Shown: positions 10,459 through 64,000 of the stretch, piece after piece
Numbering within the stretch: position 1 is the first letter of the stretch
Layout: each line of letters opens with the position of its first letter
DNA from: Rhodoferax mekongensis
GTDB taxonomy: Bacteria; Pseudomonadota; Gammaproteobacteria; Burkholderiales; Burkholderiaceae_C
Direction of reading: 5' to 3'
Length of the DNA: 64,000 nt
NCBI RefSeq assembly: GCF_032191775.1
Contig: NZ_CP132507.1
Location: 1,885,001-1,949,000, forward strand
Position numbers and translations under genes: made by a program
The notes under the pieces: model-generated
What the model was told of the DNA's origin: nothing
Databases searched by the model: none
Seen by the model: the letters and a program-made list of their open reading frames with translations, nothing else

Positions 10459-12387
10459 TCAGGTACCGATCACGCCGCCGTCCGCCTTGCGGATCACTAC
10501 GGTGGCAGAGCGTGGGCGTCCGTTGGCCTTTTTCTCGGGCCAGTTGGACACGGCGCGCGGGTTCTTGGGGTCGCTCACTTCGTTGGCTGGCTCACCGGGG
10601 TGCTGAATGTTGACGAACATGGTCTTGCCGTCTGGTGTGCCGGTCGCGCCGGTGATTTCGCAACCGGCAGGTCCCACCAGGAAGCGGCGGGCTTCGCCAG
10701 TGCGCACGTCGGCGGCCAGCATCATGTTGTTGCCGAAGTTCTTCAAGTCACCCTTGCCCATGGCGGAGGTGGACATATCGCACTGGATCCACAGCACGCC
10801 GCGGCCATCGACCCACAAGCCATCCGGGCAGGAGAACATGTCGCCCTTGATGTTGCCCTTGGCATCTGCGCGCTCCAAGGATGGGTTGCCTGCCATGATG
10901 AAGTGGTTCCAGGCGAAGGTGGTGCCGCTGTGGTCGCCGTCTTCCTTCCAGCGGATGATGTTGCCCTGGGTGTTATTCACGCGGGGGTTGGCAGCGTCCA
11001 CGCCGGGCTGTTTGTCAGCGCCGCGGTTGCTGTTGTTGGTCAGCGTGGTGTAGACCCAGCCCTGCTTGTCCACAGCGATCCACTCGGGGCGATCCATCTT
11101 GGTGGCGCCCAACAGGTCGCTGGCCTGGCGTGCCTTGATCAGCACTTCGCCCTGGTCGGCAAAGCCGTTGGCGGCTGTCAGCGGGCCTTGGCCATGGGTC
11201 AAAGCAATCCACTGGCCCCGTCCGTCTGCATTGAACTTGGCTACGTATAAGGTGCCGTGGTCGAGCAGGGTGGCGTTGGCAGCAGCGCCGCCGGGCTTGA
11301 TGGCGTCGCGGCTGACGAACTTGTAGATGTACTCAAAGCGGGAGTCTTCACCCATGTACACGACGGCTCGGTTGTCCTTGGTGACCGCCACGGTGGCGCC
11401 TTCGTGGGCTGCGCGGCCCATGGCCGTGCGCTTCATGGGGGTGGAGCTGGGGTTGTAGGGGTCGATTTCCACGATCCAGCCGAAGCGGTTGGGTTCGTTG
11501 GGGTTCTTGGTGGCATCGAAACGGGCGTCATGTTCGTGCCAGCGATAGCCCGCGCCGCCCTTCTTCAAACCCCAGCGCTTTTCGTGGTCGTTGGGTGTGT
11601 CGCCGCCGCTGAAGTAGTTGATGAAGTTTTCTTCAGAAGTGAGGTAGGTGCCCCAGGGCGTGATGCCGCTGGCGCAGTTGTTGACGGTACCCAGTACCAC
11701 ACGGCCGGAGGGGTCTGCCGCTGTCTTGAGCATGGCGTGACCGGCCGCGGGGCCGCTGAGTTCCATGCGGGTGTTGGCGGTGATGCGGCGTGCCCAGGGA
11801 GAGGGCTTGACCACTTCCCACTTGCCGCCTTTTTCTTCCACTTCAAAAATCGACACGCCATGGGCCGCTTGGGACTTGCGCACTTTCTCCAGGCTCCAGT
11901 TGTCGGTGCCGTCGGTGAACAGCAGGCCGTTGTCCACATATTCGTGGTTCATGGCCAGCAGGCCGCTCTTGGAGCCTTCCTGTGCGAAGTAGTGGATGCC
12001 GTCGTGGTGCATGCCGAACTGGGTTTCCTGCTGGGCAGCAGTGTTGCTGGCGTCGTCCTTGAACGCAGTGTTTTCGCCGGACAGGCCCACAGGGTCACCC
12101 CAAGGCGCAATCACTTGTACGGTGTAGCCTTCAGGAACGGAGACGGTGTCGGCGGTAGACACGGCCACGCTTTTGAAGCCCAGCAATGCGCCGCCGGCCA
12201 TGCCGGTGGTTGCGCAGCCGGTCAATGCTGCAGCACCGCCAATGGCGCTCAAGGGCGCGAAGAAGCTGCCTGCCAAAGCGCCCAAACCACCGCGCAAGAT
12301 GGTGCGGCGTGCGGGGTCAGACACGTCGTGAATGCTGGGGTTGGAAGAGCGGTTGCTGTCTTCCATCAAGGAAAAATCTTTTGCCAT
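10459..12387 (-). CDS. phoX: PhoX-family alkaline phosphatase (Tat-exported)
   Basis: 642 aa. PhoX enzymes hydrolyse phosphate monoesters in the periplasm with calcium and iron. The N-terminus has a twin-arginine motif (RRTILRGG, RR at 27-28) before a hydrophobic stretch ending in LTGC, so it may be Tat-exported and lipid-anchored. Family stretches include FGMHHDGIHYF, LLAMNHEYVD, NNCASGITPWGTYLTSEEN, GRAAHEGATVAV and MGEDSRFEYIYKFVS. A two-part Pho box lies upstream, fitting phosphate-starvation control. The start at 12387 is the only one giving the full Tat signal. Confidence 0.93.
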   Translation of the reverse strand: MAKDFSLMEDSNRSSNPSIHDVSDPARRTILRGGLGALAGSFFAPLSAIGGAAALTGCATTGMAGGALLGFKSVAVSTADTVSVPEGYTVQVIAPWGDPVGLSGENTAFKDDASNTAAQQETQFGMHHDGIHYFAQEGSKSGLLAMNHEYVDNGLLFTDGTDNWSLEKVRKSQAAHGVSIFEVEEKGGKWEVVKPSPWARRITANTRMELSGPAAGHAMLKTAADPSGRVVLGTVNNCASGITPWGTYLTSEENFINYFSGGDTPNDHEKRWGLKKGGAGYRWHEHDARFDATKNPNEPNRFGWIVEIDPYNPSSTPMKRTAMGRAAHEGATVAVTKDNRAVVYMGEDSRFEYIYKFVSRDAIKPGGAAANATLLDHGTLYVAKFNADGRGQWIALTHGQGPLTAANGFADQGEVLIKARQASDLLGATKMDRPEWIAVDKQGWVYTTLTNNSNRGADKQPGVDAANPRVNNTQGNIIRWKEDGDHSGTTFAWNHFIMAGNPSLERADAKGNIKGDMFSCPDGLWVDGRGVLWIQCDMSTSAMGKGDLKNFGNNMMLAADVRTGEARRFLVGPAGCEITGATGTPDGKTMFVNIQHPGEPANEVSDPKNPRAVSNWPEKKANGRPRSATVVIRKADGGVIGT

Positions 12388-60191: not shown

Positions 60192-60217
60192 AAAAAACCC
60201 GCTCCGGCGGGTTTTTT
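60192..60217. terminator. intrinsic terminator after the OmpA-family gene
   Basis: AAAAAACCCGC TCC GGCGGGTTTTTT: a short GC stem with A- and T-runs, 21 bp after the stop codon and just before ubiG. Confidence 0.9.
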
Positions 60218-60239: not shown

Positions 60240-60953
60240 ATGCAAACCACACTCAACGCCGATCCTGCTGAACTTGCCAAATTTTCTGAGCTCGCCCATC
60301 GTTGGTGGGACACGGAAAGTGAGTTCAAGCCTTTGCATCAGATCAACCCCCTGCGGTTGGCGTGGATTCAAACTTTAGTGCCCCTGGCAGGCAAGACCAT
60401 GGTGGATGTCGGGTGCGGTGGCGGGATTTTGGCCGACTCAGCAGCCCGGCAAGGTGCCAAAGTGCTGGGTATTGATCTGTCCACCAAGGCATTGAAGGTC
60501 GCCCAGCTTCATGCTTTGGAAGCTGAAACCCCTAATGTCACCTACCGTGAAGTCAGCGCAGAAGCGCTGGCCGCTGAAGCGCCTGGAAGCATGGATGTGG
60601 TTACTTGCATGGAAATGCTGGAGCATGTGCCCAACCCGGCTTCTGTGGTTGAAGCCTGCGCCCGCATGGTCAAACCGGGAGGGTGGGTGTTCTTTTCGAC
60701 ATTGAATCGCAACCCCATGTCGTTCATTCAGGCCATCGTCGGGGCTGAATACGTGTTGAATTTGCTGCCCAAAGGCACGCACGAGTACGCAAAGATGATC
60801 CGCCCGAGTGAGCTGGCGCACTATTGCCGCGAGGCTGGCCTGGAGATTCAAGCGACCAAGGGGCTCAGCTACAACCCCTTGACCCGTCGTTATTCCATGA
60901 ATAACAACACGCAAGTGAATTATTTGTTTGCTACCCGGAAACCTGCGGCATGA
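60240..60953 (+). CDS. ubiG: ubiquinone biosynthesis O-methyltransferase
   Basis: 237 aa from ATG 60240; the longer frame crosses the terminator. SAM-binding motif [38 protein letters not shown] at the N-terminus, and [11 protein letters not shown] fit UbiG, which carries out both O-methylations in ubiquinone synthesis. ATGA overlap with gph. Confidence 0.96.
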
Positions 60954-61630
60954 GCTTGAAAACACCGGTGGGTGAAGTAAAAGCGGTACTTTTCGACTTG
61001 GACGGTACCTTGATCGACAGTGCGCCGGACTTGGGGGCGGCTGCCGACAAAATGCGAACTGACCGCGGTTTGCCCTCCTTGCCAGATGCTGCTTACCGAC
61101 CCATGGCAGGTGCGGGTGCGCGAGGAATGTTGAGCGTAGCGTTTGGAATGACCCCTGACTCCCCCGGGTTCGAGGCGATGCGTGAAGAGTTTTTTGTGAA
61201 CTATGAACGCTGCATGACCGAACGCACTTATGTGTTCGAGGGTGTTGAGGACATGTTGAGCCAGTTGGAAACCTGCGGAGTATTGTGGGGTGTAGTCACC
61301 AACAAATCAAAGCGGTTCACCGAGCCCTTGGCCGCTCAAATGCCATTGTTCACGAATGCCTCGGTTGTCATCAGCGGAGATACAACGCCCCATGCGAAGC
61401 CGCATCCCGAGCCTCTATTGGAGGCCGCACGCCGCCTGCAGCTTGATCCGTCCCAATGTGTCTATGTCGGCGACGATGAACGTGACATCTTGGCCGCGCG
61501 TGCAGCCGGCATGTATTCTGTGGCCGCATGCTACGGATACCTGGGTGCCAAGGCGGACACGGCGGAGTGGGGTGCTGACCTGGAAATTAAATCTCCTACC
61601 CTGCTCTTGCAAAGTCTGACGAGCGCCTAA
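60950..61630 (+). CDS. gph: HAD-family phosphatase, phosphoglycolate phosphatase type
   Basis: 226 aa. HAD motifs: [11 protein letters not shown] (nucleophile Asp), [20 protein letters not shown] and [16 protein letters not shown]. The ubiG-gph pair is conserved in betaproteobacteria. Gph removes 2-phosphoglycolate, made during DNA repair; some relatives (MupP) instead act on MurNAc-6-phosphate, so the substrate is not certain. Its last codons overlap the promoter of the tmRNA region. Confidence 0.9.
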
Positions 61631-61633
61631 AAT
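61607..61633 (+). promoter_or_regulatory. promoter in front of the tmRNA region
   Basis: TTGCAA (61607-61612) and TAAAAT (61628-61633) are 15 bp apart and overlap the end of gph. The -10 box is about 10 bp before GGGGCTG at 61643, so the transcript would begin at the truncated tmRNA-like copy and not at the complete ssrA. I see no comparable -10 before the complete copy. Confidence 0.55.
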
Positions 61634-61642
61634 AGGGATTGA

Positions 61643-61870
61643 GGGGCTGCACTGGTTTCGACGTGGATTGGAATCGCTGTGGTGCATGTCGAGCTGAATG
61701 TGCTCGTAAAACAGATTCAAACAAACTAACTGCAAACGGTCAACGCCCATAAATATCCATAGTTTGGATGGTGAGTGAGTGACTTCCTCTGAAAAAGAGT
61801 AAAATTCAAAGTATGGAGACTTCCATAAGTCTCCATACTTTGGGTAAGCAAAATGTTTGCAACCCAACAC
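61643..61870 (+). ncRNA. truncated tmRNA-like module (5' half only) upstream of ssrA
   Basis: It begins GGGGCTGCACTGGTTTCGACG, the tmRNA 5' end, and has CAAACAAACTAACTGCAAACG, identical in its core to the resume region of the complete ssrA. The frame from the resume GCA (61732) reads A-N-G-Q-R-P-stop, unlike the ten-residue tag of the full copy. After the tag it has a small ATCCA/TGGAT hairpin and then unrelated sequence ending in a perfect 16-bp hairpin. It has no 3' tRNA-like half, so it cannot act as a normal tmRNA alone. It may be a relic, or a regulatory RNA. Confidence 0.75.
61807..61842. repeat. perfect 16-bp hairpin at the junction of the two tmRNA copies
   Basis: CAAAGTATGGAGACTT, loop CCAT, AAGTCTCCATACTTTG. 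It is very stable but lacks a T-run, so it is not a classic terminator. It is followed by GGGTAAGCAAA ATG TTTGCAACCC, a second imperfect palindrome, ending just before the complete tmRNA. Possible roles: processing site for the tmRNA precursor, or end of a mobile element. Confidence 0.7.
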
Positions 61871-62252
61871 GGGGCTGACCTTGGTTTCGACGGGGGTGCT
61901 GAGTCAAGTGGAGCATGCCGAGCAATTTCAGAACGCTCGTTAATCTATCTGGAAACAAACTAACTGCAAACGACTCGTCGTACGCACTCGCTGCTTAATT
62001 GCACGCGAGCCTCACAACAGTAAGCCGATAGGCTGGGCAAAGGTGGCGTAAGCCACCCTAGCTGTGGGGTAATTTAATTCGGCTGGGCCTGTCTTGGGTA
62101 ACTTAGGATGGGTCGAGAAAATAGGTTGCTGGCGTCTTGTAAAGCGTGCCACTGCGCGTTACTAGAAGCGAGAATTAAATCAGACGGCTACGCATGTAGA
62201 ACTATTTGGTGATGGCTTTCGGACGGGGGTTCGACTCCCCCCAGCTCCACCA
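61871..62252 (+). ncRNA. ssrA: transfer-messenger RNA (complete)
   Basis: 382 nt, normal length. The 5' GGGGCTG pairs with 3' CAGCTCC before ACCA. TTTCGACGGGGG at the 5' side and GGGGGTTCGACTCCCCC at the 3' side (T-arm) complete the tRNA-like domain. The resume codon GCA at 61966 starts the tag ANDSSYALAA, followed by TAA (61996-61998). The tag ends in ALAA, the degradation signal. tmRNA rescues stalled ribosomes with SmpB. The 3' end is a common integration site for islands. Confidence 0.96.
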
Positions 62253-62572
62253 TATACCTTTGAAGCCCGCCTTGTGCGGGCTTCATTTTTTGCAAATACG
62301 TGCCAGTTGCTTCCTCTGGCTATCTCATAGTTGCAGCCTGCTACGCAAACTGCCATGCAGTAGACTGCATTTTGGCTCGCTCAGCTCAATAGCTAACGTG
62401 CGTCTCGTTCGAAATGTTGTAGCGCACGGCCTGATGGACAAACCAGCCCTCCGGTGCACATATGGACAACTTTCCAAGTTGCCCACATGCACACCCAACG
62501 GCGCTGGCTTGACCACAGGAGTTATACCTACGGCCTGACGCGCTTCGCTTGCCAAGAATTAAAAATAGAAAT
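62253..62572. other. gene-free stretch after ssrA (island edge)
   Basis: 320 bp with no supported gene; open frames here either start inside the tmRNA or lack motifs. GCCCGCC TTGT GGGCGGG-like sequence just after the tmRNA (62266-62282, AAGCCCGCCTTGTGCGGGCTT + CATTTTTT) is a probable ssrA terminator. ATATGGACAACTT / AAGTTGCCCACAT (62459-62487) is an imperfect inverted repeat that could be a recombinase arm site. Confidence 0.5.
62263..62290 (+). terminator. ssrA terminator
   Basis: GAAGCCCGCC TTGT GCGGGCTTC followed by ATTTTTTGC: an 8-9-bp stem and T-run starting 11 nt after the tmRNA CCA. Confidence 0.88.
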
Positions 62573-62773
62573 TCAAGGTTTTGGGAGCTGAACTCGAAGC
62601 AAACGCATAGTCAGGGTTACTGGCTTTGGCTCGGACGACTGCCCCCAATAATCGGTTTTCCAGTTACATCTGGCGCAAAAGTATCGATACATTAAGTGTG
62701 CCCAGTAGTCGTCCCCTACAGCTTCTATTTGAGGCTGATGCAACCCAATTCGGCATCTAATATCTTTCCCCAT
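62573..62773 (-). CDS. small hypothetical protein with a Cys pair
   Basis: 66 aa. I chose ATG 62773 because GGAGGA lies 6 nt before it; an ATG at 62788 precedes that site. MGKDIRCRIGLH ... YRYFCARCNWKTDYWG contains a C-x2-C pair and an early Cys, resembling small zinc-ribbon-like proteins of phages and islands. Low GC and position after ssrA fit an integrated element. No function assigned. Confidence 0.6.
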   Translation of the reverse strand: MGKDIRCRIGLHQPQIEAVGDDYWAHLMYRYFCARCNWKTDYWGQSSEPKPVTLTMRLLRVQLPKP

Positions 62774-62852
62774 CTGGTCTCCTCCCATCGGAAGTCTAGA
62801 CCGGAAAAAGAGATTCCTATGTGCTACCCATCATATTTAATGAACAGCTGAG

Positions 62853-63359
62853 TCAGCTAGTTGGCCAGACAGCTTTTAGGGGGACGGTGCGGGCAAATTT
62901 TGCTCTGGATACACCGTATCCGAAAAGTAGTCCACCAACCCAAGCGTATGCCGTCCACCAGAGGGCTACACCCGCTATTAGGGCTACGGCAGCAGTGCAC
63001 AAGGAACGTTTGAAAAGCTTGCGTAGCCCCTCAGGAATACATTGAATTCGCTCACCATTTGGGAGCTCAATACCAAGCACAACCCAGTCGGGCCCTCCGG
63101 AAATGGACTGTGATATCTCGGTATTGAAGCCGTTCTTAGAGGGTAGAAGCTCCAAGTGGAGGCCCTTCACTTCACCGTTGAGAAACGCATCTTGTAAAGG
63201 CTTTGGAATATGCACGGACGCATACCGCTGGGGAGAGGTGTCGTCATAGTACTGGAGGTACAAAGCGAAGTTATCGACGCCGCGGACGTCAGAAGAGGAG
63301 CTTCGAATACGAGCGACTTGAATCTTGTGAGGTTGCCGGTACGGAACGTGGTGAGGCAT
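62853..63359 (-). CDS. hypothetical membrane-anchored protein of the island
   Basis: 168 aa, starting after AGGA 7 nt upstream. A soluble N-terminal domain of about 115 residues (FALYLQYYDDTSPQRYASVHIPKPLQDAF, GLHLELLPSKNGF, GPDWVVLGIELPNGERI) is followed by two hydrophobic segments in the C-terminal third (CTAAVALIAGVALWW and AYAWVGGLLFGYGV). It is 78 bp downstream of the GmtX-like gene on the same strand. Low GC. Not recognised; could be cargo of the island. Confidence 0.6.
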   Translation of the reverse strand: MPHHVPYRQPHKIQVARIRSSSSDVRGVDNFALYLQYYDDTSPQRYASVHIPKPLQDAFLNGEVKGLHLELLPSKNGFNTEISQSISGGPDWVVLGIELPNGERIQCIPEGLRKLFKRSLCTAAVALIAGVALWWTAYAWVGGLLFGYGVSRAKFARTVPLKAVWPTS

Positions 63360-63437
63360 AGCAAATCCTGGTGGTTTTGCCTCCGTATAGTCAGCAGCTG
63401 ATTCGTTCTTCCCCAGCTTTAAGTCGGCGGCCTAAGC

Positions 63438-64000
63438 CTACTTCAGAGAGAGAATGGTCTTCACAGCAGTGACGAATCCGGGCTTGAAGATTGTTCGAGT
63501 TCGACCTTCACCCAGTGACTTAACAACGCGACCATTTTTCTCTTCCTGCCAGCTCTCTGAGCTCCAAAGCTCAGAAGAGATGGAGTGCTCCAAAGCCTCG
63601 CGCTCCAGCGTAGACAACTTGGGCCCTGTAGACACTTCAAGCGTCATACCGTCATTGGAGGTGGATGATGTATTGTTCCTAACGGCAAGAGGTCGTTTAT
63701 TGATAACTACCTGTGACTGCGACTTGAGAATATTTACCTCTGCCAGCAAAGCGTTTCGCTCTCGTACAAGCTTTTCCACCACAATGCGCATGGCAGGGTC
63801 TGTAATGGAGCGCGTCAGATTGTCAGCGGCGCCGACTTTGGCTGTCTCACGCAGCTTGGGCCCACCTGCATACGCCTGCCATGCCTCAATAAGCTTTCGA
63901 TAGTCAGCAGACTGAACATTCCACAGAGCTTTAACTTTGAGGCCCCCTCGGGACTCTACGGTCTCGCCAACAGTTTTGAGCGAGAAATCTTTGCTTCCCT
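63438..64000 (-). CDS. GmtX-like protein of a mobile island (partial, N-terminus beyond window)
   Basis: The frame stays open to the window edge; 186 residues are visible. It starts GSKDFSLKTVGETVESRGGLKV-type sequence (shown in part), then SADYRKLIEAWQAYAGGPK, SITDPAMRIVVEKLVRERNALLAEVNILKSQ (a coiled coil) and a C-terminal region of about 80 residues. The KDFSL..VG / YR.LI.AW / ITDPA.R pattern matches, from memory, GmtX of the gamma-mobile-trio islands, where GmtY (tyrosine recombinase) and GmtZ lie upstream. Those genes would be to the right of this window. The internal ATG at 63791 is not the true start. Confidence 0.55.
   Translation of the reverse strand, partial: GSKDFSLKTVGETVESRGGLKVKALWNVQSADYRKLIEAWQAYAGGPKLRETAKVGAADNLTRSITDPAMRIVVEKLVRERNALLAEVNILKSQSQVVINKRPLAVRNNTSSTSNDGMTLEVSTGPKLSTLEREALEHSISSELWSSESWQEEKNGRVVKSLGEGRTRTIFKPGFVTAVKTILSLK

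Follow-up and report, generated by a model that had tools for sequence, protein, structure and literature searches.

A gamma-mobile-trio element in the split ssrA gene of Rhodoferax mekongensis carries a complete spare ssrA with recoded tag codons

Introduction

tmRNA, the RNA that frees stuck ribosomes, is almost universal. In the Islander account (PMC4383910) it is the most enriched integration target, and the islands are described as carrying a piece of the target in attP, rebuilding the gene at one junction and leaving one fragment, which was 3′ in 3,760 and 5′ in 159 of 3,919 islands. The group I introns described in tmRNA, as given in PMC11915505, sit in the T-loop. In tRNA-dependent lysogeny, as set out for actinobacteriophages (Guerrero-Bustamante and Hatfull 2024, PMC10865867), the split tRNA gene is not rebuilt and the phage supplies a whole gene. 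Gamma-mobile-trio (GMT) elements, for which a passage in PMC12715929 cites Mahata et al. (2024, Nat Microbiol), are known here from NCBIfam models. Among the literature matches listed, titles and the openings of abstracts held no tmRNA version of this break-and-spare arrangement, which is no proof of novelty.

Here we describe such an arrangement in Rhodoferax mekongensis. The stretch analysed, hereafter the window, comprises 64,000 nt (NZ_CP132507.1, 1,885,001-1,949,000), its end being genome position 1949000. We consider it very probable that a GMT element split the host ssrA site-specifically after the resume codon and brought a complete, recoded spare that maintains trans-translation.

Results

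A complete ssrA preceded by the front half of another

ARAGORN called one complete tmRNA in the window (61871-62252, tag ANDSSYALAA). It scores 190.3 bits with Rfam RF00023 (cut-off 47), passing the covariance gathering score, its tag frame ends in LAA and its 3′ end carries CCA (...CTCCACCA). Starting 228 bp before it, a 5′-only copy at 61643-61738 gave, with flank, a sub-threshold 29.9 bits, at an E value (1.8e-9) that places it well above chance. The initial annotation had placed the two 5′ ends and a repeated resume region correctly: the 20-bp block AAACAAACTAACTGCAAACG occurs unchanged at 61719-61738 and, 234 bp further on, at 61953-61972; a second copy of TGGTTTCGACGTGG (61653-61666), with a single mismatch, lies at 61882-61895. 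The two 5′ ends are only 71% identical, and the shorter copy has no complete tRNA-like domain and no 3′ half before 61870.

The features on the host side of the junction are as follows.

60950-61630, + strand: host gene 5′ of the native ssrA, an ORF for a HAD-type hydrolase; this host flank can be aligned to loci of relatives whose ssrA is unbroken
61643-61738, + strand: 5′ half of the native host ssrA, cut directly after the resume codon (congener ssrA 5′ ends; end of the flank against relatives)
61733-61738, + strand: CAAACG, the 6-bp core found at both element ends (flank overlap on empty sites)

The hydrolase gene is presumably gph. Further upstream, a hairpin with a T run (60192-60217) follows an ORF that we take to be OmpA-like; it gave weak sub-threshold matches to several sRNA families and is probably only a terminator.

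When 61630-61870 was compared by BLAST with 41 whole genomes, 19 of 24 congeners matched, always up to query base 109, which is window position 61738. The 5′ half is 86-96% identical to congener ssrA in 14 loci and 79-80% in six others, and past 61738 all 20 congener loci (L002-L021) continue into the native tag GACGAACG.... ARAGORN found a complete tmRNA in 11 of these 20, always with the tag ANDERFALAA, the other nine ending with their contigs. A tmRNA scan of the host's one-contig genome found the native 3′ half downstream, and BLAST positioned it at 10818-11103 of the host locus (L031; genome 1956317-1956602, outside the window), again with the tag ANDERFALAA. The native halves are thus in normal order, 9,578 bp apart. 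Given how congeners continue at 61738 and that a native 3′ half lies downstream, the alignments assign 61643-61738 to the host's own ssrA, as its front half, and identify the complete gene at 61871-62252 as the newcomer.

Several earlier claims change accordingly in meaning. What had been described as a second copy beside the complete ssrA matches congener ssrA and is the host gene's front half, for which "relic" was an apt word. It does lack a 3′ half before 61870, yet that half lies 9,578 bp downstream. The frame does read ANGQRP-stop after the resume codon; the sequence past 61738, however, is element end and not tmRNA, so the supposed different tag frame is a read-through. It is not conserved, the native 5′ halves of the two other insertions described below reading ANGAAP-stop and ANGLPPKLSIFAVK-stop, likewise by read-through into the element. 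The 5′ half is conserved in close relatives, there as part of an uninterrupted gene, and a tmRNA covariance search recognises it below the cut-off only, with the score given above. A promoter said to be the only good one, in front of the first copy, was not recovered: a consensus scan found no sigma-70-type site in L031 950-1900. A TAAAAT box is present at 61628-61633, nine bases before the 5′ end, and by eye in 19/20 congener loci.

Junctions on empty sites

When both host flanks are aligned with uninterrupted ssrA genes of relatives, the two matches share 6 nt in 34/34 of the comparisons in which each flank extends to the junction (L012 1605-1610 is one such overlap). These comparisons set three hosts against 21 loci, with 13, 13 and 8 full rows per host; four more rows stop before the junction. 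The insertion point directly follows the resume codon, each junction carries CAAACG, and the boundaries are those defined by comparison with uninterrupted relatives. In Paralcaligenes ureilyticus the core repeat is imperfect, since the left junction reads CTAACG against CCAACG at the right junction and in most fetched relatives. A short common core, the 6-bp overlap, and a target that is not rebuilt both hold for this insertion.

The element between the native halves

61739-64000, no strand: window part of the 9,578-bp GMT element, which continues to genome position 1956316 (junctions and gene content)
61746-61766, + strand: terminal motif of the left end, CCCATAAATATCCATAGTTTG, to which the right end (CCCATAAAAAACTTCCATACTTT) is an imperfect inverted match; similar in two related elements
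61807-61842, no strand: perfect 16-bp inverted repeat, TCCATACTTT on both strands
61871-62252, + strand: complete replacement (spare) ssrA carried by the element (ARAGORN; RF00023, 190.3 bits)
61966-61998, + strand: tag frame of the spare, ANDSSYALAA-stop; codon 4 (61975-61977) is TCG against congener GAA
62261-62285, + strand: terminator-like hairpin with a T run after the spare (L031 1762-1786)
62853-63359, − strand: 168-aa ORF (ORF list)
63438-64000, − strand: gmtX, running past the window (L031 2939-3625; NCBIfam NF040692, 1.1e-53)
beyond the window after gmtX, − strand: gmtZ (NCBIfam NF047926, 4.9e-275)
beyond the window after gmtZ, − strand: gmtY (NCBIfam NF040693, 6.9e-129)
beyond the window after gmtY, − strand: RecD2-like helicase gene, then a VPA1267-type gene

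From the left, the element thus holds 132 bp of end sequence, the complete ssrA, the 168-aa ORF (which matches no family in Pfam or NCBIfam up to an E value of 1), GmtX, GmtZ, GmtY and the RecD2-like and VPA1267-type proteins. GmtX (181.9 bits, cut-off 40), GmtY (430.9, cut-off 340) and GmtZ (914.4, cut-off 600) all exceed the curated NCBIfam cut-offs, and the VPA1267-type protein, at 86.4 bits, falls just below its model cut-off of 90. Having GmtX, GmtY and GmtZ together, the element is by gene content a GMT. In GmtY, R246, H415, R418, H441 and Y450, which we take to be the catalytic residues, are invariant in 6/6 aligned proteins. The ends, GTCAACG-CCCATAAATATCCATAGTTT on the left and, read inward, TTCCTCA-CCCATAAAAAACTTCCATACTTT on the right, are imperfect inverted repeats. 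The perfect repeat at 61807-61842 is a probable recombinase-binding site; as it holds copies of the element's terminal motif, we infer a DNA site rather than a regulatory RNA.

Directly 3′ of the native 3′ half lies a phage-type integrase gene (L031 11309-12550; genome 1956808-1958049) with Arm-DNA-bind_3 and Phage_integrase domains, presumably P4-type. Because of its position, the usual ssrA 3′-end site may also be occupied in this host. DNA similar to the region 3′ of the native gene also follows ssrA in some relatives (L008, L012 and L239).

Two related elements sit at the same ssrA nucleotide

The closest elements found, in a genome of the same family (G444; GmtZ 67% identical) and then in P. 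ureilyticus (G810; GmtZ 57%), are both in ssrA. Their target nucleotide is identical to that of the R. mekongensis element, their end motif is similar, and a complete ssrA adjoins the 5′ half. A split native gene with boundaries given by comparison, GMT genes and a complete spare therefore recur together in three genomes; these three are all the ssrA-type insertions found. The elements measure 66,292 bp (G444), 62,936 bp (P. ureilyticus) and 9,578 bp (R. mekongensis); junction and spare are separated by 132 bp in R. mekongensis and by 168 and 189 bp in the other two. In G444, C6:2761-3046 holds the native 3′ half and C6:68796-69170 the complete ssrA; in P. ureilyticus they are at C7:62027-62300 and C7:124679-125047; in both, the 5′ half precedes the complete gene. 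The P. ureilyticus native halves belong together, as their acceptor strands (GGGGTCG and CGACTCC) match each other and those of the spare differ (GGGGCCG and CGGCTCC). Beyond the base corresponding to 61738, little is common to the three insertions by eye apart from the end motifs.

Among 20 larger proteins scanned in the two long elements (L167, L182-L184, L192-L195), several are metal-handling cargo: RND efflux, heavy-metal P-type ATPases and a multicopper oxidase. Two SMODS-domain genes lie near the spare ssrA of G444.

GMT elements elsewhere

A GmtZ-alignment scan of genome contigs gave 83 relatives, of which 80 were kept. GMT genes occurred in 6/399 genomes of the order, 11/399 of the family and 2/293 of the class, in 2/103 genomes of the R. 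mekongensis genus, and in 4/250 of the P. ureilyticus family; these counts include the query genome and come from overlapping draws. Pieces of ssrA were present in 2/89 GMT loci searched, namely the G444 and P. ureilyticus elements (L045 and L167), and were not found in the other 87 by pattern search with flanks of up to 10 kb. The patterns are imperfect: in the positive controls they did not pick up the 5′ half in P. ureilyticus or, in R. mekongensis, the 5′ end of the spare. Some elements are represented by two loci, and divergent tmRNAs could have escaped detection. Eighteen further GMT loci held no ssrA pieces; several repeat elements already tested, and one of them (L156), a short G444 locus, misses its own ssrA half, so that short loci are weak evidence of absence. 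ARAGORN called a complete tmRNA in 0/80 of the loci kept from the GmtZ scan. The ssrA-type end motif lies near or upstream of gmtY in L045 and L167 among the 80 listed loci, apart from chance-like hits in L082 and L119. One congener (G539) has a different GMT (GmtZ 53%) with no ssrA pieces nearby.

The right ends of twelve distant GMT loci begin, by eye, with TTATTCCCCCCAAC...ATACATAGTT or close to it, in unrelated flanks, and those of the three ssrA-type elements resemble them, again by eye. RecD2-like and VPA1267-type genes also lie near many other GMT loci. With ends that look alike by eye, on the one hand, and distant GMTs in unrelated flanks, on the other, the ssrA group looks like a GMT subgroup with a changed target. 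Seven of the twelve distant right ends (L046, L048, L049, L054, L056, L063 and L099; gmtY ends, by eye) border on an A-run and then a GC-rich arm, as would be seen if the loops of intrinsic terminators were the insertion sites of ordinary GMTs.

A BLAST comparison of 61630-61870 with phages gave no match, and with plasmids one weak match, in Legionella adelaidensis (75.6% identity over 36% of the query). The alignment scan found no GmtZ relatives in viral contigs. Plasmid records matched GmtZ in 149 cases, with identity below 60% among the 30 matches listed, and GmtY in 148, with identity below 60% among the 8 matches listed.

The spare ssrA: quality, tag recoding and history

The three spares score 190.3, 195.5 and 206.2 bits, within the range of 178.7-206.4 bits spanned by six native genes. 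For the comparison of tags, ARAGORN calls of permuted genes with odd tags were set aside and genes were re-extracted by pattern from the fetched loci instead, giving 90 distinct ssrA genes: the three spares and 87 background genes, which were fetched by similarity to the host and related loci and are not a random sample.

Tag residue 4 is Glu in 80/87 non-element genes against 0/3 spares; seven of the 87 are also without Glu there. The spares of R. mekongensis and P. ureilyticus have nearest genes with 82% and 84% identity and in both cases differ from them at residue 4; native pairs 80-85% identical outside the tag do so in 6/333. The G444 spare, 75.5% identical to its nearest gene, also differs, native pairs at 75-80% differing in 17/394; among the genes with which it groups, some have Ser or Thr at this position. 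A harsher control was weaker, with 6/33 native genes whose nearest gene is less than 87% identical differing from that gene at residue 4. In the R. mekongensis spare, codons 4-6, which adjoin the target core on its right, are changed from GAACGTTTC to TCGTCGTAC, and the codons on either side are identical to those of the nearest gene. At the altered site the P. ureilyticus and R. mekongensis spares have GCAAACGACTCG in common, and two uninterrupted native genes carry GCAAACGACTCT.

Because the changed codons lie beside the insertion point, the spare is possibly immune to insertion; on counts that are not independent, from a sample that is not random, the recoding probably keeps the spare from becoming a target of its own element. 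In the same family, uninterrupted ssrA genes with the tags ANDSTFALAA, ANDTSYALAA or ANDSTYALAA occur in L227, L228, L230 and L237. Should insertion depend on codon 4, resistance to the element would be expected in these lineages.

In a tree of 3′ halves, whose bootstrap has not settled, a very long branch (L222) attaches to the P. ureilyticus spare, which falls with genes fetched from relatives of its host, including the native P. ureilyticus gene; the R. mekongensis and G444 spares fall with genes of the window's family. With the tag and L222 left out, a single clade of the three spares was rejected (AU p 8.5e-5), and one of the R. mekongensis and G444 spares was not (AU p 0.305). Since the elements group by GmtZ and the spares are not one clade, we infer that the history of the GMT group includes at least one replacement of the spare, with different host lineages as sources.

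A consensus scan found no promoter around any of the three spares, so that the spare is perhaps expressed by transcription that starts at the native promoter and reads through.

Discussion

The arrangement would follow from a simple sequence of events. The tyrosine recombinases of the element (GmtY/GmtZ) would recombine at the core CAAACG in the host ssrA, as members of a small GMT group apparently specific for the resume-codon site. Insertion would leave a 5′ half at 61643-61738 and a 3′ half 9.6 kb away, the native gene being presumably dead. The spare, lying some 130-190 bp in from the element end next to the host 5′ half and oriented like the host gene, would be transcribed from its own or the host promoter, replace the native gene and keep trans-translation going, and its altered tag codons beside the insertion point would prevent insertion into the spare itself.

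Such a course has to be weighed against readings in which the 5′ copy still has a function. It could make an RNA that acts as an SmpB decoy or as a control element for the complete ssrA, as the initial annotation had proposed: it has a strong predicted fold (z -5.58), lies directly upstream on the same strand, and its acceptor strand GGGGCTG could pair with the spare's CAGCTCC. However, that fold score includes the perfect DNA dyad at 61807-61842, a strong hairpin holding copies of the element's terminal motif; the three insertions share little past 61738 except end motifs; and the copy looks as half a native gene should, all of which makes a functional RNA very unlikely. A working two-piece tmRNA formed in trans by the native halves is an idea to which we give almost no credence. 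Two-piece tmRNAs do exist in other lineages (PMC11915505), and the native acceptor strands of P. ureilyticus still match each other, but the natural two-piece genes described in that source are circular permutations cut from one transcript, whereas these halves stand 9.6-66 kb apart in normal, not reversed, order with the tag frame cut right after the resume codon.

Chance is a further candidate, a GMT with loose target choice having hit ssrA while carrying a foreign ssrA as ordinary cargo. The twelve other GMT ends compared do sit in unrelated flanks, and some genomes are described as having a second or third ssrA (PMC4131195). Against this, the three closest elements share the target nucleotide, the end motif and a spare at the same end, while the pattern search found no ssrA pieces in the other 87 of 89 GMT loci and the end motif near gmtY is confined to L045, L167 and two chance-like hits in 80; we regard coincidence as highly improbable. 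As had been noted earlier, the layout departs from the usual pattern, in which the ssrA 3′ end is rebuilt, for both native halves are displaced and the spare is complete. The integrase gene directly 3′ of the native 3′ half (L031 11309-12550) might speak for 3′-end integration, yet the break is at the start of the tag and the native halves survive on opposite sides of the GMT element; a tandem duplication with partial loss of one copy would have to accommodate two 5′ ends with only 71% identity. The empty-site comparison contradicts both, leaving them a very small probability.

Beyond the GMT insertion with its complete spare, which we prefer, a broader proposal is offered tentatively, at slightly less than even chances: that of a "break and rescue" element, which would destroy a near-universal rescue gene at a conserved spot and supply a target-recoded spare, the altered site being regained or kept across spare replacements. 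As the target, the resume codon and tag start, is highly conserved, possible hosts would be many. If true, the spare-gene principle would extend from phage tRNAs to tmRNA and GMT islands, a genome holding ssrA pieces and two tag types would be explained, and target recoding for self-immunity would have a natural case. Ser/Thr tags in uninterrupted genes could then mark resistance to such elements, and carrier cells would tag all stalled proteins with the invader's peptide. Annotators should note that, where ssrA halves flank a complete ssrA, the complete gene may be foreign to its host.

The element resembles other GMT elements in its GmtX, GmtY and GmtZ, its RecD2-like and VPA1267-type genes and, as far as comparison by eye shows, its ends (NCBIfam models; the passage in PMC12715929), and differs from them in having one ssrA nucleotide as target rather than unrelated flanks and in carrying a complete ssrA. 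With Islander islands, as characterised in PMC4383910, it shares the ssrA target, a tyrosine recombinase and target fragments at the island ends; unlike them, it leaves both native halves, adds a whole gene and rebuilds no end from attP. Like the dusA islands of PMC4482086 it would compensate damage to a conserved target gene; those islands, by that account, provide the old gene with a fused replacement for its 5′ end, and the ssrA element provides a whole spare. In contrast to Islander islands and, as far as PMC11915505 describes them, T-loop introns, it would give up target rebuilding and bring a whole recoded gene instead. The nearest parallel in kind is tRNA-dependent lysogeny, with which it has in common a tyrosine recombinase, a short common core, a split RNA gene left unrebuilt and a complete gene of the same kind supplied. 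In the account of PMC10865867 the actors are phages, tRNA genes and lambda-like integrases, and the need for the spare was shown with mutants; here they are a tmRNA and a GMT island, the spare is fixed beside the 5′ half, the target tag codons are changed and function is read from the arrangement. The ssrA element may accordingly be said to work like tRNA-dependent lysogeny, not to be a case of it, phage nature being judged here from scanned gene families only.
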